DNA of 31,948 bases from positions 1-31,948 of the IMG/VR virus record IMGVR_UViG_3300034117_000749; one strand, 5' to 3'. The stretch comes from a virus. Below are positions 6,769 through 29,919 of the stretch, piece by piece. The translations under genes were made by a program, and so were the position numbers. Below the pieces are notes generated by a model that saw only the letters and a program-made list of their open reading frames with translations, was not told the origin of the DNA and did not search any database. Position 1 is the stretch's first letter. Every line of letters begins with the position of its first letter.

Positions 6769-7016
6769 TTGGCGTCGATCCTCGCGGAATTGACAGCTTT
6801 ATTGATTGGGCTGATTATATGTATCCTGATCTTGAGCAGTATGGCACTGTCGTTAAGATGATGCCCGGCGGAAACTGGCAGGATTGGGCGGCTGGCTTGC
6901 TGGCTGTAAACAAAATAGCTGAGAGTAGCGCCCCTAATCCATATCAGTTTGATGACTGGAAACTTTGGGCAATGCGGTTTATACAGACGCTGAATAGCGG
7001 CGGGAGTGGTTCGTAA
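6765..7016 (+). CDS. Small acidic virion-module protein of unknown function
   Basis: 83 residues. ATGA at 6765-6768 couples it to the nozzle gene, and its stop overlaps the next ATG by one base. The sequence is rich in Trp and Asp (DWADYMYP, GGNWQDWAAGLLAVN, FDDWKLWAMRFIQTL) and ends in a Gly/Ser tail. The aromatic helices suggest a small structural protein or a chaperone for the following large protein. No family is recognised. Confidence 0.7.
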   Translation: MIGVDPRGIDSFIDWADYMYPDLEQYGTVVKMMPGGNWQDWAAGLLAVNKIAESSAPNPYQFDDWKLWAMRFIQTLNSGGSGS

Positions 7017-9238
7017 TGTTTGAAGATTATTACCTTGACGATCCATACATGCAGCAGTCTTTGATTGACGCTGGGTATTACACGACATCTGACGGGCCCA
7101 TGACAACTGAAGCCGAGACCGTATCAGGTATCGGTTCTCCTGCTGCTACCACTGCGGCTACTAATCCTGCTGCTACTACGGCTGCTACCACTGCGGCAAC
7201 TACGGCTAATACCACTGCTACTACTAATCCTGCTGCGACATCTGGTAGTCAAAATTTGACATCCGAGCAGCTTGCGGACCGGAGGGCTCAGGCAAATACG
7301 CTTCCTCGCGGAACCTATTTTTTAGCACCTACTGGTGGCAGTGGTGAGACAACTGGCTTTGAAACTGCCGGCCAACAGAGCAACTCCTTCCAATACCGAG
7401 GCGGCCCTGTTCGTGTTGTAGACTTCAATGGTAATGTCCTGTTCAGCGGGGAAGGCGCCGAAGGCGCTGTGGCAGCAGCTCGGTTTGCACAGAACCTAAG
7501 TAATACTCAAGGTTCAAATGCCTCATGGATTATTGAAGAAGGTGAGCGGACGATTAACCCAGACGGTTCCGTGGGGCCTATGCGCTGGATTTCAGGGCCA
7601 TCCACCCGTTCCGCAGGCATGGGCACCTTTGGTGACTTAGTTGCATTCCTTCTGCCGATTGCCGTTGCAATTGCCGCCGGCCCCTTGGGTCTCGCCGCAC
7701 AAGTTGCTATGGCTGCTGGCGCAGGCGCTGTTGGTGCCGTCGTGTCAGGCAATGACCCGCTCATGGGAGCTTTAATTGCTGGGGCAAGCGCGGGCATAAT
7801 GAACGTATCTGGCGCTAACGAGGCCATAAGCGGTATCATTAGGGACGCGAGTAATGCGATTACAAGTAGCTTGGCACAGGAAGGTATAAGGGCAGGCGTT
7901 GAAGAGGCTACTGAACAGATTGTTGTCAGTGGCCTAACTACACTTGCTCAAAACGTGGGCACTGCCGCAGGCACTGCTGTAAGCAACGCTTTGTTGTCTG
8001 AAGCCGTGACTAGTGGAGCTGAAGCCGCGACTAGTGGAGCTGAAGCCGCGACTAGTGGAGCTGGTGAGGCTACTGAACAGATTGTTGTCAGCGGCCTCAC
8101 TGAACTTGCTCAAAACGCAGGTACTGTCGCAGGCAACACCTTATTGTCTGAGGGTATTGCAAACCTTGATAACTTAGTGAATTCGACTGAATTACAACAG
8201 GCGGCGGATGCGGAGGCGGCGCGTGATTCTAACGAAGACATAGTTGTTAATGCTAGAGATAATCTTACTGATGTGGTCTCTGGAATTGGTACCAGCGGTA
8301 CTACGCTGCTTGATAACTTAGTGAATTCGACTGAATTACAACAGGCGGCGGATGCGGAGGCGGCGCGTGATTCTAACGAAGACATAGTTGTTAATGCTAG
8401 AGATAATCTTACTGATGTGGTCTCTGGAATTAGTACCGGCGGTACTACGCTGCTTGATAACTATGTGAATTCGGCTGAACTTGAGGACGCAATTGAGGAA
8501 GAGAGAAACCGCGAGGACGACGAAAGATCCACGCTAGATACACTAAGGGACGCAGCTCAGGTGGCCGCCGCTGCAGCTACGGTTGGTGGAGTTTTGGCAG
8601 ACACCGTAGGCGGCAGCAATAACAGCGGGACGAGCACCACAGACACCAGCGGCTTAACCCTCACGACAGGCACGCTTAGGCCCACGATCCCCGGTGGCAC
8701 TGGCGGTACTGGCGGAATCGGTGGTACTGGCGGGACCTATCCTTATACGCCGCAGACTTATGGACGACGCGGTGGAGATCAAGAGACAGAGTATCTGTTC
8801 TTTACGAGAGACCCTGTGACGGGCCAAGGATCAGTACAGAGTGGAGTTCCAGTTACAACTACTGGTACCGCTACTGGTGCCACTACTGGCACCACTGGTG
8901 TTACCGGCAGAAAAGAAGGCGGCGAAGTCGATGATGATATGGTAAGGCATCTCGTCGAGTATCATAAGAATGGCGGTCATCAGGGCCCCGGACAGGTAAA
9001 GGGTATCGGCAGCGGTCAGGACGATAAGATCCCGGCGTGGCTGTCCGATGGCGAATATGTCTGGAGCGCACAGGATGTTGCTGATCTTGGTGATGGATCG
9101 ACTGATGAAGGCGTGCGCCGTCTTGACAAAATGCGCCAGATGGTGCGTCGTCAAGCTGGGCGCAAAGACGTAAAAAAGATTGCAAAACCCCAGAAGGGTA
9201 TAGATAGAATGCTTAAAGCTGTTGGAGGACTGGCATAA
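7016..9238 (+). CDS. Large internal virion protein with repeats and C-terminal D-x-IPAxLSxGEYV motif
   Basis: 740 residues. The start contains a Thr/Ala/Asn-rich low-complexity run (about 45-75). Residues about 205-265 are hydrophobic and Gly/Ala rich (LVAFLLPIAVAIAAGPLGLA), compatible with membrane insertion. A central section (about 290-490) consists of repeats: a 54-residue-spaced pair (EATEQIVVSGLT), three SGAEAAT units and a 48-residue tandem unit. The C-terminal part has GPGQVKGIGSGQDDKIPAW followed by LSDGEYVWSAQDV and a basic end. That motif recurs in internal or ejection proteins of many podovirus-like phages, which makes an ejected virion protein the best inference. The neighbours on the right are similar in style. 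No enzymatic residues were seen. Confidence 0.75.
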   Translation: MFEDYYLDDPYMQQSLIDAGYYTTSDGPMTTEAETVSGIGSPAATTAATNPAATTAATTAATTANTTATTNPAATSGSQNLTSEQLADRRAQANTLPRGTYFLAPTGGSGETTGFETAGQQSNSFQYRGGPVRVVDFNGNVLFSGEGAEGAVAAARFAQNLSNTQGSNASWIIEEGERTINPDGSVGPMRWISGPSTRSAGMGTFGDLVAFLLPIAVAIAAGPLGLAAQVAMAAGAGAVGAVVSGNDPLMGALIAGASAGIMNVSGANEAISGIIRDASNAITSSLAQEGIRAGVEEATEQIVVSGLTTLAQNVGTAAGTAVSNALLSEAVTSGAEAATSGAEAATSGAGEATEQIVVSGLTELAQNAGTVAGNTLLSEGIANLDNLVNSTELQQAADAEAARDSNEDIVVNARDNLTDVVSGIGTSGTTLLDNLVNSTELQQAADAEAARDSNEDIVVNARDNLTDVVSGISTGGTTLLDNYVNSAELEDAIEEERNREDDERSTLDTLRDAAQVAAAAATVGGVLADTVGGSNNSGTSTTDTSGLTLTTGTLRPTIPGGTGGTGGIGGTGGTYPYTPQTYGRRGGDQETEYLFFTRDPVTGQGSVQSGVPVTTTGTATGATTGTTGVTGRKEGGEVDDDMVRHLVEYHKNGGHQGPGQVKGIGSGQDDKIPAWLSDGEYVWSAQDVADLGDGSTDEGVRRLDKMRQMVRRQAGRKDVKKIAKPQKGIDRMLKAVGGLA
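8000..8062 (+). repeat. Three tandem 21-bp units inside the 740-residue virion gene
   Basis: Units begin at 8000, 8021 and 8042. The second and third are identical and the first differs by one base (GTG for GCG). They encode repeats of SGAEAAT. They lie between the two copies of a longer similar segment starting at 7904 and 8066. Confidence 0.9.
8168..8455 (+). repeat. Two tandem 144-bp units, 142 of 144 bases identical
   Basis: The units are 8168-8311 and 8312-8455. They differ only near their ends (GGTACCAGC against AGTACCGGC). They encode 48 residues each, starting DNLVNSTELQQAADAEAARD. A diverged third start (GATAACTATGTGAATTCGG) follows at 8456, again 144 bases on, so the unit has probably been copied more than once. 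Confidence 0.95.
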
Positions 9239-10167
9239 TGGCTGTCACACAAACCGTCACCGAGACCAAGCTACCCCAATGGCTTGTCGATGCCTATACC
9301 AAGAGCATTGAAAGGGGCTATGAGGCTACGACTTCGCCTTATCAGCCCTATACTGGTGGCCCTCGCCTTGCTGCTATCTCCCCACAGGAGCAGCAAGCCT
9401 ACGATATGACATCCCGGAACGTCGGAAACTTCCGGCCTTACACGCAGGTTGCTGGTAATTACATTGCAGGCGGGACGCAATCATTCACTAATCCGGGCGT
9501 CGCATCTCAGTATATGAACCCATACGTTCAGAACGTCGTCTCTGGGATTGGTTCCGCAGCTGGTCGCAACCTGTATGAGAATCTTCTTCCTCAGGTGAAC
9601 CGCACGTTTGTTGGCGGCGGCACGTTTGGTGGTAGCCGGAGCGCTGAGTTCACGGCTCGTGCGGTGCGCGATGCCAACGCTGCGGCTCTCTCGGCTCAGA
9701 ATGAAGCTCTGCAGAAGGGCTATGAAAGCGGCATGGGTCAGTTTAATACTGAAGCTGGACGCTATCTCACGGCAGCTGAGCGGGCGCAGAGCCTTGGTGG
9801 CGACGTTCAGAGATTGGCTGGAACTGAAACTGCTGCGCTTGAAGCTGCTGGTCGCGCACAGCGTGGGTTCGAGCAGGAGTCGCTTGACCTAGCGAAATCT
9901 GATTTCGAAAACCAGCGCGACTATGATTACAATCAAGCTATGCGCTTTCGAGATTTTGTTGGCACGCCCAGCGCAAGCGGCACTGGCACTGCTACTACGC
10001 AGGCTCCCGGTCCGAATAGGACGGCGCAGACACTCGGTGCCGTTGCTACCGCCGCCGGCGCTCTTGGAAACATCTTCGGTAGGAAGGACGGTGGCCCAAT
10101 CACCGCCGACGGCAAGCGTAACATCAAGCACCCAATGCACGGGCTTGGATGGCTGAAGGATAAATAA
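9238..10167 (+). CDS. Internal/ejection virion protein (309 residues)
   Basis: 309 residues, start ATG sharing its A with the last base of the previous TAA. The N-terminal 60 residues (LPQWLVDAYTKSIERG, PYQPYTGGPRLAAISPQEQQ) and the middle (QVNRTFVGGGTFGGSRSAEF; NAAALSAQNEALQKGYE) belong to a style common in podovirus-like phages, where a repeated helical heptad pattern follows a Gly-rich turn. The end is Gly/Ala/Thr rich with GRKDGGPI and a basic tail. T7-like phages have three ejected inner proteins upstream of the end of the late region, and this may be the smallest of this set. The assignment is by context and style. No catalytic site was seen. Confidence 0.7.
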   Translation: MAVTQTVTETKLPQWLVDAYTKSIERGYEATTSPYQPYTGGPRLAAISPQEQQAYDMTSRNVGNFRPYTQVAGNYIAGGTQSFTNPGVASQYMNPYVQNVVSGIGSAAGRNLYENLLPQVNRTFVGGGTFGGSRSAEFTARAVRDANAAALSAQNEALQKGYESGMGQFNTEAGRYLTAAERAQSLGGDVQRLAGTETAALEAAGRAQRGFEQESLDLAKSDFENQRDYDYNQAMRFRDFVGTPSASGTGTATTQAPGPNRTAQTLGAVATAAGALGNIFGRKDGGPITADGKRNIKHPMHGLGWLKDK

Positions 10168-11634: not shown

Positions 11635-14600
11635 ATGGCAAACTATCGGTATACATATGAATATGGCGGAAGACGCTACGAAATCGAAGCTCCTAAAGGG
11701 GCTACGGCTGCAGATCTTCAGGCAATCGTTGACGGATCTGGCCGAGCAGCGGCTCCCGCGCCTGCTGCAGCTAAGCCTAAGCCGAAAAAGAAAGAAGACG
11801 AGTCGTTTCTTAGTGGTGTTATCCCGACGCTGAAGGCCGCAACTGGCGACATCGTTACGCTTGGCGGCAGAGCATTGGAGGTTTTTTCCCGCGCTCCATT
11901 TATTAGCTCCACCGGTCTATTGCAGGGAGTATCTCCAAAGCCTAGCGACAACATTCTAAGGCGGGCTGTTGAGAGTGCGGGGGCTTCGGCACGAAGCACT
12001 GGTCAGGGGATCACAAAGAGAGCTATTGCTGAGCTACCTGAAGCAAGTGTCGAAGATCGCCTCAGGCAGAAGGCTGAAGTGGCTAATGCAACGCCGGGCA
12101 TTGGGTCTGATATTTTTTATAGAATCAGTAAATCACTTGCAACCCCAAGCCCGAATCCTACGTTACTAGATTACGGCATTAGCACCTTGGCGCGTAACTT
12201 ACTTCCTCAAACCCCAGAGCGCGCCGCTCGTGAACTAGCAAAGGTTCAGGCACCATTTGGAACGTCGCGAGGTGCTGCTGAGTTTATTGCTAGTCAGGTT
12301 CCTGCCTCTCTTATCCCTCTTGGCGGTGGTAAAATTGCGCAAGTTGGAGGCCGTGCGATACTACCGCGTCTAGGAGTTGAGGTTTCAGAAGAGGCTCTTA
12401 AAAAGGCAGTTGGACGAGGTGTTGTCACTGCTGGCGGCGGAATAAATGCGGCTAGTGCGGGCAACCAAGCCTATGAAGATGTGATTAATGCAGGCGGAAC
12501 TAAGGAAGAGGCCGACCGCGCATTCAAGATAGCGTTCGCTGGTGCTGCTGCCGTGTCTGGTGCTGCAGCGCGGATGCCGGGCCTTGAGCAGCGAGTATTC
12601 TCTGGGGAGCCAACCAAGGGCGGCATCCTTCGCTCGGCTGGTCGCGCAGCTATTGGCGAAGCTCCGCAAGAGTTTGTTGAAGAAGGCGGCGCTACGCTGG
12701 CAACAAACGTCGCCAAGCTCGGAACCGAAGCGGAAGTGCCTATCGGCGAAGACGTTCTGTCTTCCGGCGCTATGGGTGCAATCGGCGGCGCGACAATCGC
12801 TGCCCCTATCGGCGGCCTTCAGGGTGCGTTCTCTGGTCGCGACGCGGGGCCAACCGCTCCAACGTCCGGTGCTGCACGCCAACCAAGAACACCTCCGCCA
12901 CCTCCGCCACCACCAGCAGACATGGGCGTTCTTGCTGAAGCTCTTGGCCCAGTCGGCGGCAAGGTCATTCTTCAGGAACCAACCGGGCCACAGGAATACA
13001 CGTTCGAGGGCTTCGACGAAGACGGCAGCGTTGTCCTGTCGGATGCGGATGGCGTGCTATTCTCCGAAGATCCTGATCAGATTCAGGCCGCAATTAAGGC
13101 CGGTGTTGCTGAGCCAGAAAGCGGCTTGGGTGGCATGGCCTTTGGCATGGATATTACTGAGGGTCTGGGTGATGTGACTGCTCCACCGCCTCCACCTCCG
13201 CCGCCTACCACTGGAATAGGATCTGAGCCGAAGCCGAAGTTTACCATTGAAACGGCGCAAGAAGAAGCGGCGCGGGAAGCTAAGGCCGCAATCAAGTCTG
13301 GCGCTGTGGCCCCGCCGGTATTCTCTCCGGATGTGGCCCCACCAATATTTTCACCGCCTGCTGGGAAGCCGAAGTTTACCATTGAGATACCGCCGCCGGA
13401 GCCACGGAATACAGAAGGTAAGTCTCAGGTTGGTAAGGTAATCTTCGACCAAGAAAATGGCGTCGGTCAGGTTCCGTTGAACCAGAGCGTGAATTATCGT
13501 GGCTTCACCGCCATGATGCGTCCATCAAAGTTCCTTGAATTGGCGGCTGATCTTGAAGCGCCAAAGAAGTCGAGCGTGGAATATATCCGGAAGGCTATCG
13601 ATCAAGGCAAAGGCGTTGGCTCTCCATTCCTGAATCTGGATTTTGAAACAGGTAAGGTTGATAGCCACGATGGTCGCCACCGGATGCTCGCTATTCTAGA
13701 AAAGAACGGCGACGCTCCTGTCCCGGTTCACATCTTTGGTAAAGGTGAACAGCGCGCAAGGTCGCTCGATGAGGGCAAGATCAACTCGTTTGCTTCGAGC
13801 ATGACTGGTGAAGACGGTAGGCAGTCTTCGGACAATTTCTCAGAAGCGTTTCTGGATGAAGTGTCAGTTCCTGTTTCTGCAGCAGCACCTGTACAAGAAC
13901 CTGTACAAGAACCTGTCGCCGAAGAACCTGAGCTTCCGCCTCCACCACCAGAGCGCGTCCGCACCGTCACCACCCCCGGCGGCTCTAAGATAAACACCGC
14001 CTTCGAGGTCGTGGATGCCAAGGATCTCACGGCAGCTACGGGCGACCTGCAGAACCGCGACCGCAGCCGGTCTTCCACTGACCTGCAGGTTCAGGACATC
14101 TTCGCTAAGTTTGACCCTGAGCGCCTTGGTGAGAGCCTTGAGAGCGACCGTGGTTCTCCGATTGTCGGCCCTGATAACACCGTCGAGAGCGGCAACGGTC
14201 GCGTCATGGCGATCAATAAGGTGTACAACGAGTCGCCTGAGAAGGCCGACGCCTATCGTAAGTTCATTGAAGGTCAGGGCTTCGACATATCTGGTCTTGA
14301 TCGTCCAGTTCTGGTGCGTCGCCGGACTGACCGGATGACGCCTGACCAGCGCTCGAAGTTCGTGCGCGAAAGCAACATGGACACGAAGCTGCAGCTGAGC
14401 ACCAGCGAGAAAGCTCAGACCGACGCGGCATCTTTGACCCCGGATGTTATGGCCCTCATGGCGTCTCCAGACGTTAGCGCCTCAGCCAATCAGGGCTTTG
14501 TGCGCGCCTTTCTATCGAAGCTGCCGGCGCAAGAGCAGGCTGCGTTCCTCGATAAAGATGGGCGGCTATCGGCTGACGGCATTCGCCGTCTTCGCACAGC

Positions 14601-16620
14601 TGTTAAATCAGCGGCATACGGTGATGCCGACCTGATCAACACGCTCGATGAGTCGCAGGACAATAACATCAAGAGCATTGGCGGTGCGCTTGAGGACGTT
14701 GCTCCGGCGTGGCGGCGGATGCTCGATGCAATCAAAGAAGGCGAAGTCGAGCCAGAAATGGACACGACCAAGCAGCTTGTTGAAGCGGCAAAGATTGTTC
14801 GAGATGTTCGTAACAAGAACATGAAGATTGGCGACTTCCTCTCGCAGCAGGACGCCTTCAATCCGCTGAATCCTGTGACGGAGCGGTTCATCCGTTCGTT
14901 CTATAACGAAACCTTGGGTCGTGCAGCTGGTCGCGAAGCTATTGCTGATGCGCTTGATAAGTATGTGCGCCGGGCCTCTGAGCAGACAACGGGCGAGGGA
15001 TTGTTTGGGCGTGAGTCTATGTCGCCTGTCGAAATCCTTGACGGCATCTTGGACGAGCGCGGCAGTGGCGCTGGGCAGTCCAATATGTTTGCCAGCATTG
15101 AGGCTCCATCAGGCACGCTGCAGCAAGACATCGAAGAGATACGGAAGATTCCTTCCCTTAAGCGCGGCCTTGCGAAGCTCATAAAGTACAAAGATGAGCA
15201 GCTCATCGATGATGCTGAGTTTGCGAAACAAGTCACTGATCTAAAAGATTACGTTGACTACATGCAGGAAGCAAAGAATTACCGCTTGGCCAAGAAGGGC
15301 CGTGTGCGCGGCGGTGATCGCGTGCTTTCGGCGCTGCTTGATGCTCGACGTGAGGGAGTTATAGATCCCGATAACGTTGATCTTATGATGTGGGCGCTTA
15401 ATGCGAATCCAAACCTTGCCGATGGCCTTGCAATTTCAATAGTTAAACCCAAAGAGGGTTCTCCGGCTGGTGACTATGAACCCGTTACTCGTGTCATGAG
15501 GCTCTTTAAGGGTAGGGCGTCCGATACAACTGCTGTTCACGAGCTGCTTCACCATACCGAACGCATGATGCCTGCTGATATTCAGGATGCTATCCGCACG
15601 ACGTGGTTGCGCGAATTTAACAAGCAGGCTGAGAAGTCCAAGGATAATTTTCTTGAAAAAGAATTCTTTAAGCACCTCAGGGCTTTCCATAGCGGCTCTC
15701 AAATCAAGATGGGTAAGGATACCTTACCATCCAGCAAGGGCATGGAACTAGCGCTGAACAGCATAAACAATGGATTCGTTCCGTACTCCTTCTATCAGTA
15801 CGTCAACCCGTCTGAGTTCTGGGCAGTGAATGCCACAGAAATTATGCAAAAGCGCTTTGATGTTAGCGATTCAATTCTTGGGCGTCTTCGTAACTGGCTG
15901 TCTGAGTTTGTGGAAAAAGCAAAGGGCCTCTTCAATCTTAGCGCAAAGTCGCCACTACTCAAGGCGCTCGACAGTCTCGCTAAGGCTGACGGTAAGTTCA
16001 ATTCTAAAGCGATGCTTTCTGAAGATAGCGAACGCTACATGGACGTTACGCCCATTTCGGATGCGCGTAACAGGAGCATATTGGCCAAGGCTCAGGCTGT
16101 CGTTGACAAAGGCAGTGCAGCCAAGCTCCGTGAAGTTGAGGATACCCTCGATGCCTTGGATGACGTTTATTCATCAGATGATGAGAACGCAAAGAAAGAG
16201 GCTGATCGCCTTGAGGAATCGCTCTATAACATGGAGCGTCAGATCCGCGAGAAGAGCAGGCCCTCTAATGACAACAAGCTAGAGACTGAAGTTGAAAAGG
16301 CGCAGCGTAAATATGATGCGGCCCGTAAGGCATTCGACAACCTTTTCTATTCCGCTGAAGATGAGCGCGCAAACAAGGACCGCCGGACCAAGGAACGCAA
16401 GGCTTATGAAAAAGAGCTGGATCAACTTGAGGCGGCCAAAGACGAAGCGTTTGTAAAGTGGGACAAGCTGTATCGTCAAGAAACCGAAGAGATGATGAAG
16501 GCCCTCACCAACGGCACGGCAGCTCAGATGCGGAATGCGGTTGCAAAAGCGCAGGAACGCACCGATAAGGTCATTGACGAAGGCGCTGACCTACAGAAAG
16601 ACAATCGAGGGTGTGACTGA
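11635..16620 (+). CDS. Giant multidomain ejected protein with ParB-like segments and zinc metallopeptidase motif
   Basis: 1661 residues, preceded by TAGGAG about 8 bases before the ATG. Visible parts: a small N-terminal module (YRYTYEYGGRRYEIEAP), long Gly/Ala-rich helical segments to about 415 (with ILRSAGRAAIGEAPQEFVEE at about 335, a motif of large phage internal proteins), and two polyproline runs (about 421-428 and 516-524). A ParB-like segment at about 600-740 contains DGRHRML (G680, R681, H682). A second, DdrB-like ParB segment at about 790-950 contains VESGNGRVMAIN (G853, N854, G855, R856). HELLHH starts at H1302 with NPSEFWA downstream (E1394), which fits an HExxH...E zincin site. 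The C-terminal 250 residues are charged coiled coil. Such polyvalent proteins are injected with the genome in some phages. Enzymatic activity is predicted, not shown. Confidence 0.8.
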   Translation: MANYRYTYEYGGRRYEIEAPKGATAADLQAIVDGSGRAAAPAPAAAKPKPKKKEDESFLSGVIPTLKAATGDIVTLGGRALEVFSRAPFISSTGLLQGVSPKPSDNILRRAVESAGASARSTGQGITKRAIAELPEASVEDRLRQKAEVANATPGIGSDIFYRISKSLATPSPNPTLLDYGISTLARNLLPQTPERAARELAKVQAPFGTSRGAAEFIASQVPASLIPLGGGKIAQVGGRAILPRLGVEVSEEALKKAVGRGVVTAGGGINAASAGNQAYEDVINAGGTKEEADRAFKIAFAGAAAVSGAAARMPGLEQRVFSGEPTKGGILRSAGRAAIGEAPQEFVEEGGATLATNVAKLGTEAEVPIGEDVLSSGAMGAIGGATIAAPIGGLQGAFSGRDAGPTAPTSGAARQPRTPPPPPPPPADMGVLAEALGPVGGKVILQEPTGPQEYTFEGFDEDGSVVLSDADGVLFSEDPDQIQAAIKAGVAEPESGLGGMAFGMDITEGLGDVTAPPPPPPPPTTGIGSEPKPKFTIETAQEEAAREAKAAIKSGAVAPPVFSPDVAPPIFSPPAGKPKFTIEIPPPEPRNTEGKSQVGKVIFDQENGVGQVPLNQSVNYRGFTAMMRPSKFLELAADLEAPKKSSVEYIRKAIDQGKGVGSPFLNLDFETGKVDSHDGRHRMLAILEKNGDAPVPVHIFGKGEQRARSLDEGKINSFASSMTGEDGRQSSDNFSEAFLDEVSVPVSAAAPVQEPVQEPVAEEPELPPPPPERVRTVTTPGGSKINTAFEVVDAKDLTAATGDLQNRDRSRSSTDLQVQDIFAKFDPERLGESLESDRGSPIVGPDNTVESGNGRVMAINKVYNESPEKADAYRKFIEGQGFDISGLDRPVLVRRRTDRMTPDQRSKFVRESNMDTKLQLSTSEKAQTDAASLTPDVMALMASPDVSASANQGFVRAFLSKLPAQEQAAFLDKDGRLSADGIRRLRTAVKSAAYGDADLINTLDESQDNNIKSIGGALEDVAPAWRRMLDAIKEGEVEPEMDTTKQLVEAAKIVRDVRNKNMKIGDFLSQQDAFNPLNPVTERFIRSFYNETLGRAAGREAIADALDKYVRRASEQTTGEGLFGRESMSPVEILDGILDERGSGAGQSNMFASIEAPSGTLQQDIEEIRKIPSLKRGLAKLIKYKDEQLIDDAEFAKQVTDLKDYVDYMQEAKNYRLAKKGRVRGGDRVLSALLDARREGVIDPDNVDLMMWALNANPNLADGLAISIVKPKEGSPAGDYEPVTRVMRLFKGRASDTTAVHELLHHTERMMPADIQDAIRTTWLREFNKQAEKSKDNFLEKEFFKHLRAFHSGSQIKMGKDTLPSSKGMELALNSINNGFVPYSFYQYVNPSEFWAVNATEIMQKRFDVSDSILGRLRNWLSEFVEKAKGLFNLSAKSPLLKALDSLAKADGKFNSKAMLSEDSERYMDVTPISDARNRSILAKAQAVVDKGSAAKLREVEDTLDALDDVYSSDDENAKKEADRLEESLYNMERQIREKSRPSNDNKLETEVEKAQRKYDAARKAFDNLFYSAEDERANKDRRTKERKAYEKELDQLEAAKDEAFVKWDKLYRQETEEMMKALTNGTAAQMRNAVAKAQERTDKVIDEGADLQKDNRGCD

Positions 16621-19600
16621 TGATAGGCTCTAACTGCTCCCTTGATATTGCAGATGTCGCTCTGGACAATCCTCCGGAGGCTCCGGTATTTTTGGACCCT
16701 GTACAAAACATTGGGGCCTTCTCGTCGTGGCTGCGTCCGGCGACTGCTGTTGCCCGGAAAAGCAAGTTCTTTGCCCGTATGCACAAGGCAACGAACGATA
16801 AGATCAAGATGCGCAACCTCCTCATGGCTGACTTTGAGGGGCTGCTGCATGAAGTGAATCAGCTGCCGAAGGAATCCAAGCAGAAGCTCAACGCGGTTTT
16901 CGAGTATCTCCGCCTGTCCAAGACGCCTGTCCGCGACACTGGGCGTAACTTTTCCCTCAAGACCCGTGAACTTCGGCGTGAAGGTGCGGACGGAATTGAG
17001 CGACGCGTTGCTCCTGAGCTATCGAAGCCCGGCGAAATACTGAAGCTGGATGCAAATGAAACCCGCCTGCTACATGAGGTGCGGGATTATCTGGAGAGCC
17101 GCTTTACGCTGGATGCCAAGTCGCGATTGGCTGCGCTTGGTTACGATGGCGAATACAGTCGTCAGGGAATTGAAGAGGGTGTTCAGGATGAGGAGTTCCG
17201 GGACGAACTTCTCCGCCTGTTCGATGCCATTGAGTCGCAGCGTCTGACATCGTACATCCCGTTCATGCGCTCAGGTGATACGCGCATCATGGTCTATGGC
17301 CCTGATGGCACGATAGACAGCGGCGCGTTCTTCATGTTGGACAGCCTTCAGTGGCTGAAGAATATGGTAGGCCCGAAGGCCGCCAAGCTGATCCCTGATC
17401 CGGGCATCAACAAAAAGATTGCGGAGATTCAGGAGAAGTATCCTTCCAGTGAAGGGTACAAGGTTGTCGTGAGCCGTCGCGCTGCTGACGCGAATGAGCG
17501 CCTGACTATCGACGACTTGTCCAGCTTAGACAAACTGTTGAACCTGATGGATGCCAATGCTGGCAAGATCATCAAGAATTACTTCGACCGGACTATGGGC
17601 GGCATGTTCTCTCAGGAGACTATCGGCGAACTCAGCGCGGCAAACGCAGAGCAGGTTGCCCGTGGCGTAATTGCTGGGCTGCCAAAGAGCGTGCGCTCCG
17701 TCCTGATGGAAGATCTGATCTCCAGTTACATGAAGCAATCCCGCGACATTCCGGGTTATGATACGAACTTCACGGATCGGCTGCTCGATTACAACCGCAT
17801 TGTGGCATCGACAGTCTCGCACCGTATGTACCGTGAGGAATACGCAGAAGCGTTTGATGATCTGAAGCGTAACGTAGGTGATGTTGAGCGCGAGTATGCT
17901 GAGGGCTGGGACGAATACGTAGATAGCCCTGAGCATGGTATGTTTCGTGCGCTCCGGACGATTGGCTTTTTCAACTCCATGTGGGGAAGCATTGCGTCAT
18001 CATCGGTAAACGCCATGTCTGTCTGGACAGTGACGGCCCCTCAGATGACAATCATGAAGGGTTCAGCTGGCCTTGATATTTACAAGATGTCAGCTCAGGT
18101 CATCGCCGGATTCCGTGGTCAGATTGGCTATGGAATGCACGTTGATCCATACGCAATACCGGGATTGACGGACGAAGAGCGAGAGGTTCTCGTTCTTGCA
18201 AACAAACGCGGAACCGTTCGGGCGCAGATGAACCCAGAGCTTATGGGTGTCGAAACCGAAATCATGGCGTCGCGTGGCGGCGGAATTAAGCAAACAGCGC
18301 AGCGGTATTTCCAGTATGGATCGAGCGTCATCTCTGTCACTGAAGAGATGAACAAGGCAGCTGCGTTCATTGTAGCGTATCGCTATGCCAAAGATCCGAA
18401 GGCCCTGAAGAACTGGCAGGAAGCCTATAAAGAGAACGAGCGCGCCAAGATAATCATGGAAGAGGGCTCCGACCCCTTCGACGTTGCTGAATTTATGGTT
18501 GAGACAGCGACGTTCATGGGTGGGCAGATCGAGAAGCCTCCCGTCATGCGTGGTGCCGGCGGCGTGCTGCTGCAGTTTTCCCAGTACGCTCTGCAGACTA
18601 TGTTCCTGCTATCTGAAAACCTGCGCAAGCAGGGGCCGCGTGGCAAGATAGCTGCCATGTTCACCATCATGACGATGTGGACTGTGGCTGGCCTGTTATT
18701 TGCGATTCCGTTCGGCGATGACGCGATCAATATCTTCCAGTATATCTACAACAAACTCAACGGCAGTAAGCTGGATATGCGCACTGAGGCGCAGATGATG
18801 CTGGCCGAGATGTTTGGTGGCGACGAAGATGCTCGTCGTGATGCAGAGGCTATACTGCGCGGCCCATCACGCGGACTGTTTGGCCTGAATATCAGTGAGC
18901 GCATTGGCTTCACGTCTCTCGTTCCTGAATTTGAAGACGGCCTCAGCATTGTTCCGGCCATCTCGACCAGCGTGCTGAAGATCCAAGAGTATCTTGATCG
19001 CCGCAACTCTGGGGTGCAGCCGATTGGTGCTTATGTGGCTGCCGTCTCTCCGTTTATCGGCAAGGGCCCATCGGATCTTCTGAAAGGCTTTGTGCAATAT
19101 CCGCAGGAGGGCGTCAGAACGCGCTACGGTACGCTCGTCAAAGCTCCTGAGGAAATGGGTTTCTTTGAAGAGCTGCTTCCTCGCGGGACAGGATTCCAGT
19201 CAGCTGACATTGCGCGGCGGCAGCAGGCAAAGCAGGCCGGATCAGAGATTGCGAAGTCAACGCAGAATGCGGAGCGCAACAATACGCTGCGTCTTGGCAA
19301 GATGTTGGCGGATATAACCAAGGCTGAGAACGCAGGGCAGTCCTCCAAGGCAGAAAAGATCCGCGCTGAATTTGACAAAGAGATACAGCTCATAGTCGAT
19401 AAGTTTCAAAAGGACATTGACGCTGGAAATATGGACAAGGCTGTCAAGCCACCCTCCACTCAGACGCTGAAAGAAGCGATGATGGCTGAGCTATATCCGG
19501 GCATGAAGCTAGACAACGTGGGCAAGCTGAAGCGCGAGGCTTACATCGATGCTTACCGGACGATCATGGTCGAAGATGATGAGGATGATCTCATTCCCGA

Positions 19601-19655
19601 CGAAGAAGAATTGGAAGAAGAGGAAGGCGACGCTGAGGCCGCCTTCCCCCAGTAA
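16620..19655 (+). CDS. Large internal virion/ejectosome protein with membrane segment and acidic tail
   Basis: 1011 residues. The start overlaps the previous stop (TGATG), so it is coupled to the 1661-residue gene and may once have been part of the same polyprotein. The N-terminal two thirds are long charged helices (KSKFFARMHKATNDKIKMRN; KLNAVFEYLRLSKTPVRD). A hydrophobic segment at about 680-705 (MFTIMTMWTVAGLLFAIPF), preceded by NSMWGSIASSSVNAMSVWTV at about 450, could cross a membrane. The C-terminal end is strongly acidic (EEELEEEEGDAEAAF). The layout, large with helical bundles and a late membrane span, recalls the biggest ejection proteins (T7 gp16-like) and proteins with large polyvalent-associated domains. 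No lytic transglycosylase motif was seen. It is the last late gene, and its stop codon lies one base from the converging early gene. Confidence 0.75.
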   Translation: MIGSNCSLDIADVALDNPPEAPVFLDPVQNIGAFSSWLRPATAVARKSKFFARMHKATNDKIKMRNLLMADFEGLLHEVNQLPKESKQKLNAVFEYLRLSKTPVRDTGRNFSLKTRELRREGADGIERRVAPELSKPGEILKLDANETRLLHEVRDYLESRFTLDAKSRLAALGYDGEYSRQGIEEGVQDEEFRDELLRLFDAIESQRLTSYIPFMRSGDTRIMVYGPDGTIDSGAFFMLDSLQWLKNMVGPKAAKLIPDPGINKKIAEIQEKYPSSEGYKVVVSRRAADANERLTIDDLSSLDKLLNLMDANAGKIIKNYFDRTMGGMFSQETIGELSAANAEQVARGVIAGLPKSVRSVLMEDLISSYMKQSRDIPGYDTNFTDRLLDYNRIVASTVSHRMYREEYAEAFDDLKRNVGDVEREYAEGWDEYVDSPEHGMFRALRTIGFFNSMWGSIASSSVNAMSVWTVTAPQMTIMKGSAGLDIYKMSAQVIAGFRGQIGYGMHVDPYAIPGLTDEEREVLVLANKRGTVRAQMNPELMGVETEIMASRGGGIKQTAQRYFQYGSSVISVTEEMNKAAAFIVAYRYAKDPKALKNWQEAYKENERAKIIMEEGSDPFDVAEFMVETATFMGGQIEKPPVMRGAGGVLLQFSQYALQTMFLLSENLRKQGPRGKIAAMFTIMTMWTVAGLLFAIPFGDDAINIFQYIYNKLNGSKLDMRTEAQMMLAEMFGGDEDARRDAEAILRGPSRGLFGLNISERIGFTSLVPEFEDGLSIVPAISTSVLKIQEYLDRRNSGVQPIGAYVAAVSPFIGKGPSDLLKGFVQYPQEGVRTRYGTLVKAPEEMGFFEELLPRGTGFQSADIARRQQAKQAGSEIAKSTQNAERNNTLRLGKMLADITKAENAGQSSKAEKIRAEFDKEIQLIVDKFQKDIDAGNMDKAVKPPSTQTLKEAMMAELYPGMKLDNVGKLKREAYIDAYRTIMVEDDEDDLIPDEEELEEEEGDAEAAFPQ
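19622..19647 (-). terminator. 8-bp perfect hairpin, possible terminator of the early (-) operon inside the end of the late gene
   Basis: GGAAGGCG (19622-19629) pairs with CGCCTTCC (19640-19647) around a 10-base loop. On the - strand the hairpin begins 9 bases after the SSB-like gene's stop and is followed by TCTTCTTCCAATTCTTC, a T-rich tract. On the + strand it is followed by CCCCCAG, not a T run. This favours termination of the - transcript. The T tract is not continuous, so strength is uncertain. Confidence 0.45.
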
Positions 19656-19964: not shown

Positions 19965-20996
19965 TTATTGAAACAGTTTCATTAACTTGGTGGTGTTGCG
20001 TGGAGCCATCAGCTCTGCTTCTTCAAGCATCCCTTCGTGCAATGCACGCCAAGGTTCACGCTCTTCTGGGGGCAGGCCAGCTACAATCTCAAATGCTGCA
20101 TTTGCCCAGCCGTCCCAATCGATCATGCCTTCTTCATCTTCAACCGCATGCACCATTTTTATGCGAACGGGCGCAGGCGCAGCCTTGGCTACAATCTTTT
20201 CTTCAAGGGTCTGCACCTGAGCTTCGGCTGCAGGAACGTCATCGAAGTCGGTGATGTCCATTTCGTCGCCGCTATATTCATCAGCCTCGATGATACCTTC
20301 TGCCTGATTGTCAGTCATCACAGCACGTTGCGCTTCGGTGGACAGTGGCATGTACTTGCTGGCCCGGCGGACCACAGTCTTGCGCCACATCTCAGGCTCA
20401 TCGGTATCCCAAGGGCCGACGATGGTTCCGTCCTTGGTCTTGGACGATGAGCGGTCACGGATAGCAAGGATCTCTTCCTTGCTCATGATCTCGAACTGCG
20501 TCTCACCGTTCTTCAGCTTCCATACGCAGTACGCGCCGATCTTCTCGCCGCGATCCGACAGGCCATGCTTGTGGATGATGCGCGACTCGATGCCTTCCTC
20601 GACCTCGAACAAGTCTTTGCTATATACCAGACGGCTCTCGATCTTCAGAACCTCACCACCCTGCAGCGCCAGCTTCATCAATCCCTTATAGCGCGGACGG
20701 AACTGGGCGACATTCTTCTTCATGCGGCCATCCCAGACCTTCAGGATGTCAGCCTCACCCATGCTCTTATTGAGCGACAAGCCAAGCTCAGCGGCGCTCA
20801 GGCACGCCTTCAGCAGCGAACCACGGTCGCAGTCCAGCAGGGCCATGTTGTCGGCGACAGCTGCCACCACAATGCCTTGGAACTTATCGACCGTCATGGC
20901 CTGCGGCAGAAGGCTGCGAAGATGTCCTTCGCGCATGGCCAGCTCCTGCTTAAACCGATCCATCGGCTTCACGGGAACCATCTCGTTACTTTGCAT
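19965..20996 (-). CDS. recT: RecT-family single-strand annealing protein
   Basis: 343 residues. RecT proteins anneal complementary single strands and work with a 5'-3' exonuclease. The N-terminal 230 residues follow the family: LRSLLPQAMTVDKFQGIVVA, then LLDCDRGSLLKACLSAAELGL, FRPRYKGLMKLALQGGEVL and a WRKTVVRRASKYMPLS end motif. The gene is beside a YqaJ exonuclease and an SSB-like gene. A C-terminal extension of about 85-100 residues (from about 245, starting SGDEMDITDFDDVPAAEAQ) is unusual in length and acidic, and it contains a Trp-rich helical part. Start ATG has AGAGGA about 9 bases upstream and lies within the last codons of the preceding mini-gene. Confidence 0.9.
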   Translation of the reverse strand: MQSNEMVPVKPMDRFKQELAMREGHLRSLLPQAMTVDKFQGIVVAAVADNMALLDCDRGSLLKACLSAAELGLSLNKSMGEADILKVWDGRMKKNVAQFRPRYKGLMKLALQGGEVLKIESRLVYSKDLFEVEEGIESRIIHKHGLSDRGEKIGAYCVWKLKNGETQFEIMSKEEILAIRDRSSSKTKDGTIVGPWDTDEPEMWRKTVVRRASKYMPLSTEAQRAVMTDNQAEGIIEADEYSGDEMDITDFDDVPAAEAQVQTLEEKIVAKAAPAPVRIKMVHAVEDEEGMIDWDGWANAAFEIVAGLPPEEREPWRALHEGMLEEAELMAPRNTTKLMKLFQ

Positions 20997-21147
20997 TTTT
21001 CAATTCCTCTTCTAAATCATCAATCATTAATTCAATGGCACGCTCAACAACGGCTCGAAGCGTAGGTTTCAGGGGGTGCTTGGCTGCGACATCGCGCAGC
21101 CTTGCCAGCAGATCCCTATCGACCCTCATCATAACAATATCTTTCAT
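20986..21147 (-). CDS. 53-residue ribbon-helix-helix-like mini-protein
   Basis: MKDIVMMRVDRDLLARLRDV opens with a short strand (DIVMMRV) followed by two helices (RDLLARLRDVAAKHP and LRAVVERAIELMIDDLE). This is the pattern of small ribbon-helix-helix DNA-binding proteins. The first ATG shares a base with the YqaJ stop (TGATG). Its last codons overlap the RecT start by 11 bases. Placed inside the recombination operon, it may be an autoregulator of the promoter at 22120-22155, but no binding data exist. It could also be a structural accessory of RecT. Confidence 0.75.
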   Translation of the reverse strand: MKDIVMMRVDRDLLARLRDVAAKHPLKPTLRAVVERAIELMIDDLEEELKNAK

Positions 21148-22082
21148 CAGGTAATCCTTACTGTAGTGTAACCAGAACGCTTGCCCGTCAGGGTGCCAAC
21201 CATGTCAGCGGTGATTTCCTTGCCGGGATTATCAGCAACTACACTGATCGACATCTTATGTTCGCCGCACTTGACCGAAGCCTTGTCCTGCGATGTATTC
21301 ATAAGCTCCAGCTTCGCACGAGCCTTCATCAAAATCATGGCCTTGGCTTCATCGGCACGGGCAGCAGCATTCTTCTCGTCTTGCTTGGCAGTCTTATAGT
21401 CCAAGAAGAGCAGCGCGTCTCCGTCATCGAGCACGACATCGCTCTTAGGTAACGTCCCCATGAGCTTCGTGATAGAGCCCACGTCAGTCGCATAGTCAGG
21501 CTCCGGCTCCGTGCCATCGGCAATCGACTGCCAGAACAGCGTAATCTGGTTCTTGATTGCATCAATGATGTTGTCATTGCGCGGAACCTTCATGCGGCGC
21601 GGCTCGTCATCGATCAGTGCAACCAACCATGCGTGGTCGGCAGTTGTGCAGGCCAGCTGGTGCTGCACCTGAAGCAGATAGTTCTCAGGCGCTTCATCGA
21701 TCTCTTCACCATTGTAGTGCCAGCCATAGCCACGCGCAGACCATTTGATCTCCACAGGTGCGCCGCCTGCCGTGATGTAATCGAACGATGCACCCATGCC
21801 GGGGCAGTCATCGACCGTATAGTAGTCACTGACCTTCCCAAGATCCATTGACCAACGATGCGACGCCCAGTTTGCAATGCCGCTCTCAAGGAATGTGCCA
21901 GCTTGCACAGCCTTATTGCCAGAGATGTCCTCCGGCGGCAGCTTGCCAGCCTTCTCCATCCACAGCTGCCAGCGGCTCGAATAGGGCGACAGCCCGAACA
22001 ACGCAGCAACATCGCTCCCACCAATGTGCTGGGAACGTAACTCGTGCCAGTGCTTCTGGTCACGTACTTGTATGATAGCCAT
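21147..22082 (-). CDS. YqaJ-type (lambda exonuclease family) 5'-3' exonuclease
   Basis: 311 residues. The lambda/YqaJ PD-(D/E)XK family degrades one strand of double-stranded DNA so that RecT can anneal the rest. Visible family elements: GGSDVAALFGLSPY near the N-terminus, LESG at about 65, GASFDYI with D101, VEIKW with E111 and K113 (the catalytic Glu-x-Lys), and YLLQVQHQL with Q138. The D...ExK...Q set is what is expected of an active enzyme. ATG at 22082 has CGGAGA upstream. The gene is the first of the recombination cassette (exonuclease, RHH-like, RecT, SSB-like) and is preceded by a promoter candidate. The C-terminal 100 residues include helical parts without a known domain. Confidence 0.9.
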   Translation of the reverse strand: MAIIQVRDQKHWHELRSQHIGGSDVAALFGLSPYSSRWQLWMEKAGKLPPEDISGNKAVQAGTFLESGIANWASHRWSMDLGKVSDYYTVDDCPGMGASFDYITAGGAPVEIKWSARGYGWHYNGEEIDEAPENYLLQVQHQLACTTADHAWLVALIDDEPRRMKVPRNDNIIDAIKNQITLFWQSIADGTEPEPDYATDVGSITKLMGTLPKSDVVLDDGDALLFLDYKTAKQDEKNAAARADEAKAMILMKARAKLELMNTSQDKASVKCGEHKMSISVVADNPGKEITADMVGTLTGKRSGYTTVRIT

Positions 22083-22100
22083 TTATTTTCTCCGGTTTAT

Positions 22101-22118
22101 GGCCGTATCTAGTCGGCC
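22101..22118. promoter_or_regulatory. Short inverted repeat in the leader of the recombination cassette
   Basis: GGCCG (22101-22105) and CGGCC (22114-22118) can pair around an 8-base loop, between the promoter candidate and the YqaJ start. It could be an operator half-site pair or an mRNA hairpin. The 5-bp stem makes chance likely. Confidence 0.25.
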
Positions 22119-22119
22119 T

Positions 22120-22155
22120 ACATGTGGCATACACTTGTCTACGGAGTTATGTCAA
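22120..22155 (-). promoter_or_regulatory. Sigma70-like promoter with operator-like inverted repeat, ahead of the exonuclease gene
   Basis: On the - strand, TTGACA (22150-22155) is a perfect -35 box. A weak -10-like TATGCC (22126-22131) follows after 18 bases. ACATGTG (22120-22126) and CACTTGT (22132-22138) form a 7-bp inverted repeat with one mismatch around GCATA, overlapping the -10. The -35 lies in the last codons of the nuclease gene, so the promoter would start an operon of exonuclease, RHH-like protein, RecT and SSB-like protein. The inverted repeat could be the site of a repressor. Confidence 0.45.
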
Positions 22156-22462
22156 GCGCCTTGTAAACATCTTCAACAGATCGCGCCAACACGTATATCC
22201 CGCCGCGCTTTTCCCACGCACTCTGCCATGCTGCCTGCGCAAGCCGCTGCTTTCCCTTCTCAGTCTTGACCTCGATAGCAAACGCTCGGCCCGGCGACAT
22301 AACCCCAAGCAGGTCGGGTGTCCCCTCAGGTGCAGACTGGATGACACGGGCTCCACCATCGAGCGGTCGGAACTTGCCCACGTTGATGCGGAACATCATG
22401 ATGTCCTGCCTCTGGCCCAGAGCGAGACGGATGTCCTGCTGGATTGCAGCCTCAGATCTCAC
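22139..22462 (-). CDS. VRR-NUC domain nuclease
   Basis: 107 residues starting at GTG 22462, overlapping the previous stop by four bases (GTGA). The VRR-NUC fold is a small PD-(D/E)XK nuclease, often a structure-specific endonuclease. Visible motif: EGTPDLLG with D50, then AFAIEVKTEKGKQRLAQAAW with E64 and K66 and downstream Gln residues, as the family requires. The length fits single-domain phage members. It sits behind a DEAH helicase, a common phage pairing. The substrate (branched DNA, Holliday junction or host DNA) cannot be told from this sequence. Confidence 0.85.
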   Translation of the reverse strand: MRSEAAIQQDIRLALGQRQDIMMFRINVGKFRPLDGGARVIQSAPEGTPDLLGVMSPGRAFAIEVKTEKGKQRLAQAAWQSAWEKRGGIYVLARSVEDVYKALDITP

Positions 22463-22683
22463 TGCAGGGTTTCCTGTTTCTCATCGCCATCCAGCTGCTC
22501 CATCGCAGCCTCAGTGGCGGCCATCATGGCAGCAAAGCACCGATGGATGTCGATCTCTTCGATCTTCCGGTCTTCATGCCACTGATCGATCACATGCAGC
22601 ATCTCAAATGTCAGCGCATGGATCAGGGACAGTGGCACTACTACCGAATGGAATCCTGTGTCTTCCCCATCGTCATCTTCCAT
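22459..22683 (-). CDS. Small acidic protein of unknown function
   Basis: 74 residues, beginning MEDDDGEDTGFHSVVVPLSL. The chosen ATG at 22683 has AAAGGG upstream and overlaps the end of the helicase gene by 43 bases. A longer open frame to 22794 has no good ribosome site. The N-terminus is very acidic, followed by a helix with HALTFEMLHVIDQWHEDRKI and an Ala/Met-rich end. It may be a partner of the helicase or nuclease, but nothing in the sequence shows this. Confidence 0.65.
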   Translation of the reverse strand: MEDDDGEDTGFHSVVVPLSLIHALTFEMLHVIDQWHEDRKIEEIDIHRCFAAMMAATEAAMEQLDGDEKQETLQ

Positions 22684-24131
22684 ATCGCTGCCCTTTCTTC
22701 TGCCGTCAGGCCGTTGGTTGTTTGAGCATCGCGCATACCGACCTTCTTGGCAAGTCGCGACGCCTCTTGCCCGCAGATAACATTGAATGCCCACTGCGTC
22801 GGGTTATTGTAGCCGCGTTTCCGGGCGACACTGGTGAGAACTCGATGCCTCTTCTGCATCAATCCCTCTTGTGTGCTGATGTCTGGATCATCGTCCCGGC
22901 TGGTCATCACCAGATCGCCATCAACATGCTTCACTTTTCTAGCCGTGACAGGATAAACGTGGCCGCACATAGGGCATGTAGGCGTCGGCTTGTGAACAGC
23001 GAAGCAGGCTGTGCATGTCCGAACAGACACGACCTTCTCCGCATTCTTGCCGCGTCCCGTTACAAAGCCATCGGCAAGGCTCCATTCTCTCTCATCGTCA
23101 ATGAATCCATGACGGGCGGTGTTGCCTGCGTGATCAAGAATAATCGTGCGCTCCTTGTCAGGGTGCGGTCTGATCGCTCGACCGCATTGCTGTAGGAACA
23201 GACTTAGGGATTTCGTTGGGCGCAGCAGGATTGCGACCTCAACGGACGGAAGATCGAAGCCCTCGCTCACTAGATCACAGCTGGTCAGGATCTGAACGCG
23301 GCCATCCTCGAAGGCTTTCAGTATACCATCCCGCTCAGTGTCGTCCATACCACCATCGATGTGGCTGGCTGCATAGCCAGCGTTGCGGAAGTCCTCTGCC
23401 ACATCCTTGGCGTGCTTGATGCTGACGCAGAACGCGATTGCCTTCTTGCCCGGCGCGTATTTACCATAGTGCTTGACCGCGCTGCCGGTGATAATCGGCT
23501 TGTCCATCGCGTCTTCGAGCTGCTTGGAAACGAAGTCCCCCATGCGCGTGCCGACAGAGCCCAGATCAGGCGTGCTCGGCGCATATACAATGGCGGGGGA
23601 CAGGAATCCCTGCGCGGTCAGCTCAGCGACTGTAGGCCCCATCACCATGTCATCGAACATCTGGCCCATACCTTTGCCGTCAAGGCGCTCAGGCGTAGCC
23701 GTAACGCCCAGCACGCGGGCAGTCGGGAAGCCAGCAACAGCCTTGCCCCAGCTGCTGTCAGGGGTGAAGTGATGCGCCTCGTCGCCAATGATAAGGTCGA
23801 ACGGCTTCATCATCTTCATGCGCCGCACCAGCGTGAACACGGATGCCACTACCACATTGGCAATGGGAATGCCCGGCGTCCCGCCAGACAGGACGGCATG
23901 AGATACACCCACCTTCCTCAGTGCGCTGCTGATTTGCTTGAGCAGCTCACGCCTGTGCGCCACGATCAGGATGCGCTTGTTGTTGCGCGCCATGCCTGCC
24001 GCAATGTAGCTGAAGATCACCGTCTTGCCCGATCCAGTAGGGGAAACGAGCAGGGTCTTCTTGTGCCCAGCGCGAAAGCTGTCACGCACAGCCTGAACGG
24101 CTGATTCTTGGTAGTCTCTAAGCTGAACCAT
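22641..24131 (-). CDS. SSL2/Res-type superfamily 2 DEAH helicase with zinc-binding segment
   Basis: 496 residues from ATG 24131, chosen for AAGGA 6 bases upstream. Motif I PTGSGKT (31-37), motif II DEAHH (117-121), motif III VTATPERLDG (143-152), then the C-terminal helicase domain with VSEGFDLP (288-295) and motif VI QQCGRAIRPHP (314-324) are all intact, so it should be an active ATPase/helicase. A four-cysteine cluster (C373, C376, C386, C389) probably binds zinc. The end contains GYNNPTQWAFN, similar to the KPGWA-type segment of phage Res-family helicases. Such helicases act in phage recombination or replication restart. It precedes a VRR-NUC gene. Confidence 0.9.
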   Translation of the reverse strand: MVQLRDYQESAVQAVRDSFRAGHKKTLLVSPTGSGKTVIFSYIAAGMARNNKRILIVAHRRELLKQISSALRKVGVSHAVLSGGTPGIPIANVVVASVFTLVRRMKMMKPFDLIIGDEAHHFTPDSSWGKAVAGFPTARVLGVTATPERLDGKGMGQMFDDMVMGPTVAELTAQGFLSPAIVYAPSTPDLGSVGTRMGDFVSKQLEDAMDKPIITGSAVKHYGKYAPGKKAIAFCVSIKHAKDVAEDFRNAGYAASHIDGGMDDTERDGILKAFEDGRVQILTSCDLVSEGFDLPSVEVAILLRPTKSLSLFLQQCGRAIRPHPDKERTIILDHAGNTARHGFIDDEREWSLADGFVTGRGKNAEKVVSVRTCTACFAVHKPTPTCPMCGHVYPVTARKVKHVDGDLVMTSRDDDPDISTQEGLMQKRHRVLTSVARKRGYNNPTQWAFNVICGQEASRLAKKVGMRDAQTTNGLTAEERAAIWKMTMGKTQDSIR

Positions 24132-24191
24132 GTGTTTCCTTATGTGGCAGACTATCTTCGCCCCGGCCTGCCAGCAGGGTTCCAAAGTGCC

Positions 24192-26955: not shown

Positions 26956-27129
26956 TTAGAAATTACGGCGACGCCGCTCTTCCTTCAGCAGCCTTTCAGC
27001 AGTCTCCAAGCTAATGCCAAATGCAGCAGAAACTTGGTGCGGACGCTTACCCAGAAGCGTGGTGTCCGGCCAATCGCGGATGATTTTGAAAGCCAACTCA
27101 GAGCCCTCGTGCTTATTCTTTATTCCCAT
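26956..27129 (-). CDS. 57-residue HTH-like basic protein
   Basis: ATG 27129 overlaps the primase-helicase stop (TATGGGAATAA). The sequence has LAFKIIRDWPDTTLLGKRPH then QVSAAFGISLETAERLLKEE and ends in a basic tail (RRRRNF). A helix-turn-helix around VSAAFGISLETAERLL is plausible. Target unknown. A five-codon upstream extension has no ribosome site. Confidence 0.65.
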   Translation of the reverse strand: MGIKNKHEGSELAFKIIRDWPDTTLLGKRPHQVSAAFGISLETAERLLKEERRRRNF

Positions 27130-29534: not shown

Positions 29535-29919
29535 GATTAATGCCCAGCATTTCTGCGAATCCTTTTAATGTTTCCTGCAAGCTATCCCCGAATAGCCTCA
29601 TAGACAGGTCGATCATGTCGCCATGCTCTCCGGTCGCGAAGTCTTTCCAACGCCCAGTGCTAAGGGAAACCCCCAGCGAAGCGTTGCGATCATTGCGCCA
29701 CGGCGCACTGCAAACAAACCACCCACCCTGCCGCTTGCCATCCGGCAACCAAGCCTTGCACAGTGCTTCGATATGTGTGGAACTCAAGCGATCCTTAATA
29801 TCGCTTATAGATATTGACCGGGGATTGACGGCCTTGCCAGAGGGGGGGAAAGGGGCCCGCGCACTGGAAGCTATGTGGTTTTTAGGCGTGCCTTGGACAT
29901 CGCCACATTTCCCGGTCAT
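29527..29919 (-). CDS. Primase zinc-binding-like N-terminal module with few cysteines
   Basis: 130 residues. The segment GGWFVCSAPWRNDRNASLGV, then STGRWKDFATGEHGDMIDL resembles the CHC2 zinc module of DnaG-like primases (short strands ending in W-x-DF-x-GE-x-GDxIDL), but the second Cys pair is replaced (FATGE). Only one Cys is at the expected place, so zinc binding is doubtful. The start has AAAGG 10 bases upstream. A Ser/Pro-rich N-terminal 45 residues may be flexible. The gene overlaps the Toprim gene by 8 bases and probably acts with it as one primase. Confidence 0.75.
   Translation of the reverse strand: MTGKCGDVQGTPKNHIASSARAPFPPSGKAVNPRSISISDIKDRLSSTHIEALCKAWLPDGKRQGGWFVCSAPWRNDRNASLGVSLSTGRWKDFATGEHGDMIDLSMRLFGDSLQETLKGFAEMLGINHA

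Follow-up and report, generated by a model that had tools for sequence, protein, structure and literature searches.

What does a single viral protein do with two ParB-like segments and the motif of a zinc metallopeptidase, and does it do so inside the infected cell? The question is raised by a long open reading frame (ORF) in the window analysed here, which is the entire IMG/VR record of an uncultivated virus (31,948 bases). An earlier note had read a GRHR and a GNGR segment as ParB-like and HELLHH with a downstream EFWA as a zincin, and suggested that the protein, if it enters the cell with the DNA, could disarm host defences. On the translated ORF the motifs fall exactly where that note placed them (GRHR at residue 680, GNGR at 853, HELLHH at 1302, EFWA at 1394). 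A GGAG resembling a ribosome-binding site lies upstream of the ATG at 11635. The parts of the gene are as follows.

11635..16620, plus strand: ORF of the polyvalent protein (1661 aa; ATG at 11635, stop at 16620), its class assigned by profile and BLAST matches
11635..12864, plus strand: N-terminal region, aa 1-410, Gly/Ala-rich, with mildly hydrophobic segments by hydropathy
12892..13386, plus strand: proline-rich linker region with two P8 runs (aa 420-427 and 517-524) and two KPKFTIE copies (aa 533 and 578)
13441..13800, plus strand: probable first ParB/sulfiredoxin-like module, aa ~603-722, from alignment and AlphaFold2 model; without a Pfam model
13672..13683, plus strand: GRHR, aa 680-683, in the first ParB/sulfiredoxin-like module
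13981..14328, plus strand: ddrB-ParB domain, aa 783-898, from the PF18763 profile match and structural matches
14191..14202, plus strand: GNGR, aa 853-856, in the ddrB-ParB domain
14350..15069, plus strand: helical domain, aa ~906-1145, following ddrB-ParB; common to P1 DdrB by tblastn, and seen in the model
15202..16017, plus strand: zincin-type metallopeptidase domain, aa ~1190-1461, from alignment, model and structure comparison
15538..15555, plus strand: HELLHH, aa 1302-1307, with predicted zinc ligands H1302 and H1306 and predicted general base E1303, all invariant (n=54)
15793..15816, plus strand: Y1387 and E1394, 7 apart and both invariant; E1394, in EFWA (aa 1394-1397), is the predicted third zinc ligand
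16483..16617, plus strand: constant C-terminal tail, aa 1617-1661, ending NRGCD, retained while upstream modules are exchanged

Neither the reading frame nor its motifs can be put down to chance. The protein's own composition predicts 0.003 occurrences of GRHR, 0.027 of GNGR, 0.003 of HExxH and 0.002 of EFWA, and the motifs are not accidental because they are invariant in alignments: GRHR in 17 sequences, GNGR, with its conserved active-site arginine, in 16, and the zincin residues in 54. Across all three modules dN/dS is 0.10-0.28 wherever it is computable. Conservation in viral relatives together with these ratios rules out a chance ORF.

A Pfam search matches the second ParB-like segment to PF18763 (ddrB-ParB) with E=1.1e-33 and 116.3 bits against a cut-off of 27.6. 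In an AlphaFold2 model covering residues 585-1165 (mean pLDDT 83), residues 775-919 align with structures of ParB, Noc, KorB and sulfiredoxin with Z up to 8.9; the ParB, Noc and KorB chains score Z 8-8.9, typically over 85-101 residues at 2.0-3.4 Å, and nearly all of the best 29 structural matches are chains of the ParB/sulfiredoxin superfamily. Profile search and structure prediction, the checks that the earlier note had proposed, thus bear out its reading of GNGR. A nuclease-type function is predicted for the ParB modules.

The GRHR segment is a different matter. Residues 585-745 form a conserved domain of about 150 residues, 61-89% identical in 16 relatives, so a real domain is there. Its affinity to ParB/sulfiredoxin, which the earlier note had read from GRHR, is probable and not firm. 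No Pfam match to residues 603-722 was found, and phrog_1033 (ParB-like partition proteins) matches 4 of the 17 members, with a best E of 8e-5 and 0.06 for the window protein. The AlphaFold2 model of this segment (pLDDT mostly 57-89) runs helix-strand-strand-GRHR-helix-strand, which is the ParB order; GRHR opens the helix that comes after the second of two strands. The only structural matches that cover the segment are Osa (Z 4.5-4.8) and free serine kinase (Z 5.5), both members of the ParB/sulfiredoxin superfamily. It probably belongs to that superfamily too, and the support is weak. A recent duplication of ddrB-ParB was considered as its source and rejected: comparison of its profile with that of the ddrB-ParB alignment showed no relationship. 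The segment has no real match in the phage records searched.

The metallopeptidase motif lies in a domain whose residues H1302, E1303, H1306, H1307, Y1387, E1394 and W1396 are invariant in 54 aligned sequences, a set retrieved in part by patterns that contain HExxH itself. In a motif-independent set, from loci fetched by the ParB region only, six of six distinct zincin domains keep both HExxH and SEFWA. The model of residues 1165-1475 (pLDDT 82) has a helix, three strands, the HExxH helix and, further on, a helix (model residues 228-245) that carries E1394, the arrangement given for the metallopeptidase (MPTase) class (PMC5512222). The protease domain of anthrax lethal factor is the best structural match (Z 7.2, 121 residues, 3.4 Å), followed by SprT-type proteins, IrrE and selecase, with middling scores overall (Z 4.9-7.2). 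The Y-x6-E spacing equals that of Y728 and E735 in lethal factor. Middling Z scores combined with invariant ligands in the right elements support a predicted zincin-type domain, as HELLHH and EFWA had suggested at the outset. Foldseek alone gave no PDB match at E<=0.001 for either the zincin or the ParB-region model, and sequence searches of the PDB, started from the whole protein and from each of the three domain alignments, found nothing meaningful. The module matches part of gp27 of Erwinia phage Pavtok at 39% identity, and a second-query search of phage records found it only in five Erwinia phage records. Five relatives of the zincin come from metagenome-assembled genomes (MAGs) whose contigs are classified as Burkholderiales, Rubrivivax, Methylomonas, Methylococcaceae and Thiobacillus, a hint of proteobacterial hosts.

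Taken together, these matches indicate that the product is a phage-type polyvalent protein, a class already described. Such proteins are large, multidomain and late, carry ddrB-ParB with a zincin MPTase and show extensive domain shuffling; ParB and HExxH in one phage protein is a typical combination (PMC5512222). At least two described domains (ddrB-ParB and zincin) lie in this one large polypeptide, beside virion genes. The combination that the earlier note singled out is therefore real for ddrB-ParB and the zincin, probable for the first segment, and already known. Where the window protein differs from the class is in its additional second ParB/sulfiredoxin-like module, for which Pfam has no model; ddrB-ParB is stated not to be accompanied by other DNase domains (PMC5512222).

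The prototype of the class, P1 DdrB, shares ddrB-ParB and the helical domain after it (aa 783-1207, 29% identity by tblastn). In both proteins an HExxH lies C-terminal to ParB, in P1 as HELGH near the C-terminus; this region falls outside the part aligned by BLAST, which did not match it to the zincin. P1 DdrB differs in being 995 aa long and in having neither the N-terminal part nor the first ParB-like module, and its gene neighbours are darA/ddrA, whereas those in the window are tail and ejection genes. A DarB-like giant protein of Erwinia phages Pavtok and PEp14 has the same zincin module (39% identity) but runs to 5007 aa with parts annotated as methylase, helicase and transglycosylase; the search found no ddrB-ParB match in it, and synteny with Pavtok beyond the zincin is undetectable by sequence. 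The third comparison is with the N4 virion RNA polymerase (vRNAP), an ejected protein that has an HExxH domain and, after it, a large C-terminal part made of helices (PMC12633501). Its N-terminal region is weakly similar to that of the window protein, but it carries an RNA polymerase where the window protein has ParB modules.

The surroundings of the gene also point to the virion. Upstream lie an SU10-type adaptor and tail genes, including a tail chaperone, and two further neighbours are these.

9238..10167, plus strand: homologue of a DNA ejection protein, two genes upstream (phrog_4287, E=9e-14)
16620..19655, plus strand: tail-700/PLxRFG-like gene, next downstream, 1011 aa, overlapping the polyvalent stop (TGATG)

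The polyvalent protein is thus encoded among late and virion genes. The tail-700 gene matches NF032893 with E=9e-28 and 97.1 bits, just below the cut-off of 100. In nine other phages a tail-700-like part forms the C-terminus of the polyvalent ORF, and one such fusion (L154) passes the cut-off; in the window lineage tail-700 is a separate ORF. Profile comparison of the zincin and tail-700 with N4 vRNAP yields nothing beyond the motif: with hhalign the zincin matches the N4 C1 domain at the motif only, and tail-700 against N4 C2 gives nothing. At the other end of the protein, phrog_2206 (an N4 virion RNA polymerase profile) matches six of seven sequences in their N-terminal regions, at similar profile positions, with E from 4e-5 (L059) to 0.07 and 0.059 for the window protein; hhalign of this region against N4 alone is weak. 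The N-terminal likeness may fit, weakly, a role in ejection. The two KPKFTIE copies in the linker are an exact 21-nt repeat. In the constant tail, GAGGG lies inside the last codons, 8 nt ahead of the next gene's ATG, and since NRGCD overlaps it, part of the conservation of NRGCD may serve translation of that gene. The only cysteine of the 1661 residues, C1660, lies within the same ending.

How fixed is the combination of domains? A non-redundant set of 71 ORFs with ddrB-ParB contains 35 with HExxH, which with few exceptions follows ParB on the C-terminal side; as 1.7 are expected, the pairing is not accidental. When relatives are compared along the protein in 40-residue steps, identity shifts abruptly at module borders. 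L107 has a zincin 98-100% identical to that of the window and lacks the first ParB-like module; in L064 the ddrB-ParB is about 50% identical and much of the zincin about 90%; in L060 the two ParB modules are present and the zincin is missing. The close relatives L060, L082 and L116 retain ddrB-ParB along with the constant tail at the C-terminus but contain no HExxH, so the zincin is dispensable in some members. A different HExxH domain replaces the zincin in L080 and L062, and L059 has both. This second module (HEAIH) lies at aa 1471-1790 of the L059 ORF 8246-13744. Most relatives retain the N-terminal part, and every one retains the last 45 residues. We tentatively suggest, at somewhat under even odds, that a constant delivery frame (the N4-polymerase-like N-terminus, the fixed C-terminal tail and the separate tail-700) carries interchangeable cargo cassettes, among them a second enzyme domain of ParB/sulfiredoxin type that had not been named before, so that the effectors loaded into the single ejection slot differ between related phages. 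The new points are modest: one unnamed module and a clear exchange of cassettes.

What, then, would such a protein do? The reading that we prefer, with a probability of about 0.5, is a polyvalent protein akin to P1 DdrB. It would be made late, alongside the tail and ejection proteins, and would probably be packed in the head and probably leave with the DNA; we infer ejection from the neighbours and relatives. The packaging and ejection frame would consist of the N-terminal part and of tail-700, the protein encoded next, and the middle of the protein would hold exchangeable effector modules: ParB/sulfiredoxin-like, ddrB-ParB with its helical partner, and zincin. Most likely the zincin would cleave the chain at its linkers, proline-rich or other, either inside the head or once in the cell. 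Cleavage would free the two ParB-type modules, which could bind or hydrolyse nucleotide and bind or nick DNA as infection begins. Self-processing by its own protease has been proposed for DdrB (PMC5512222). Counted against this reading are the missing zincin of L060, L082 and L116, the position of the P1 HELGH outside the BLAST alignment, and the N4 vRNAP, which also has a zincin and is packaged uncut (PMC5512222).

The zincin and ParB modules might instead hit host targets at time zero, as the earlier note proposed. The zincin would then cleave host proteins, such as those of defence, and the ParB modules would either attack DNA or shield it. Such a role is possible, one of several candidates, though we think it rather unlikely. 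The catalytic residues are intact in the alignment, the nearest fold (Z 7.2), the protease domain of anthrax lethal factor, comes from an effector that is delivered, and the modules are shuffled among relatives as conflict would predict; moreover, the P1 Dar proteins are anti-restriction and are co-ejected with the DNA (PMC12810830). However, a substrate is not inferable from fold similarity, and the same zincin class is the one proposed for self-processing (PMC5512222), which here is at least as likely as a role against host defence.

The same parts could also serve the particle itself. The protein may be mainly a component of head packing or ejection, with the ParB and zincin folds used for binding and capsid maturation and not for attack, a serious rival that we nevertheless hold to be improbable. 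P1 DdrB is a head protein, listed in a table as aiding the addition of DarB to the capsid (PMC9024508), and the region of N4 vRNAP with the MPTase is required for encapsidation (PMC5512222); the tail-700 partner gene and the N-terminal resemblance to N4 vRNAP point the same way. Against this, the invariant zinc ligands and the low dN/dS agree with a catalytic role, and relatives with the same C-terminal tail miss whole modules, which is not easily allowed for an assembly part. Finally, a late intracellular protein that never enters the virion would suit a virus known from sequence, as an uncultivated record, yet this seems very unlikely given the ejection genes nearby and the homologous or similarly placed proteins found in virions: DdrB was detected in that of P1 by mass spectrometry (PMC9024508), and JC1 virions contain the DarB-like gp69 (PMC9144972). 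Since the search of phage records found the zincin only in the five from Erwinia phages, the mass-spectrometric evidence from JC1 concerns a similarly placed DarB-like protein and not the window zincin.

The intracellular action of polyvalent proteins is still mostly predicted, and the exchange among relatives makes this family useful for that reason. Natural variants have both ends in common and differ in single modules, gained or lost (ParB-like, ddrB-ParB or one of two zincins), so that comparison could separate the part of each in packaging, processing and host range; the separate tail-700 gene here allows frame and cargo to be studied apart.

Some observations concern the rest of the window. 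Promoter and terminator scans gave matches at chance level only. At 844-4395 lies a putative tail fibre with a repeated WD40-like pattern in its C-terminal part (AVAFSPAGDAIAV...GTKYSNPATLP). Between the tail and ejection genes, a 740-aa ORF (7016-9238) contains a 144-bp near-perfect tandem repeat at 8165-8515. Genes for RecT, a YqaJ-type nuclease and a ResIII-type helicase occupy 19965-24185 on the minus strand, opposite to the late genes. Also on the minus strand, a primase-helicase (27120-29919) appears as two ORFs, with a zinc-ribbon part at 29527-29919 and a Toprim-like/ATPase part at 27120-29534.
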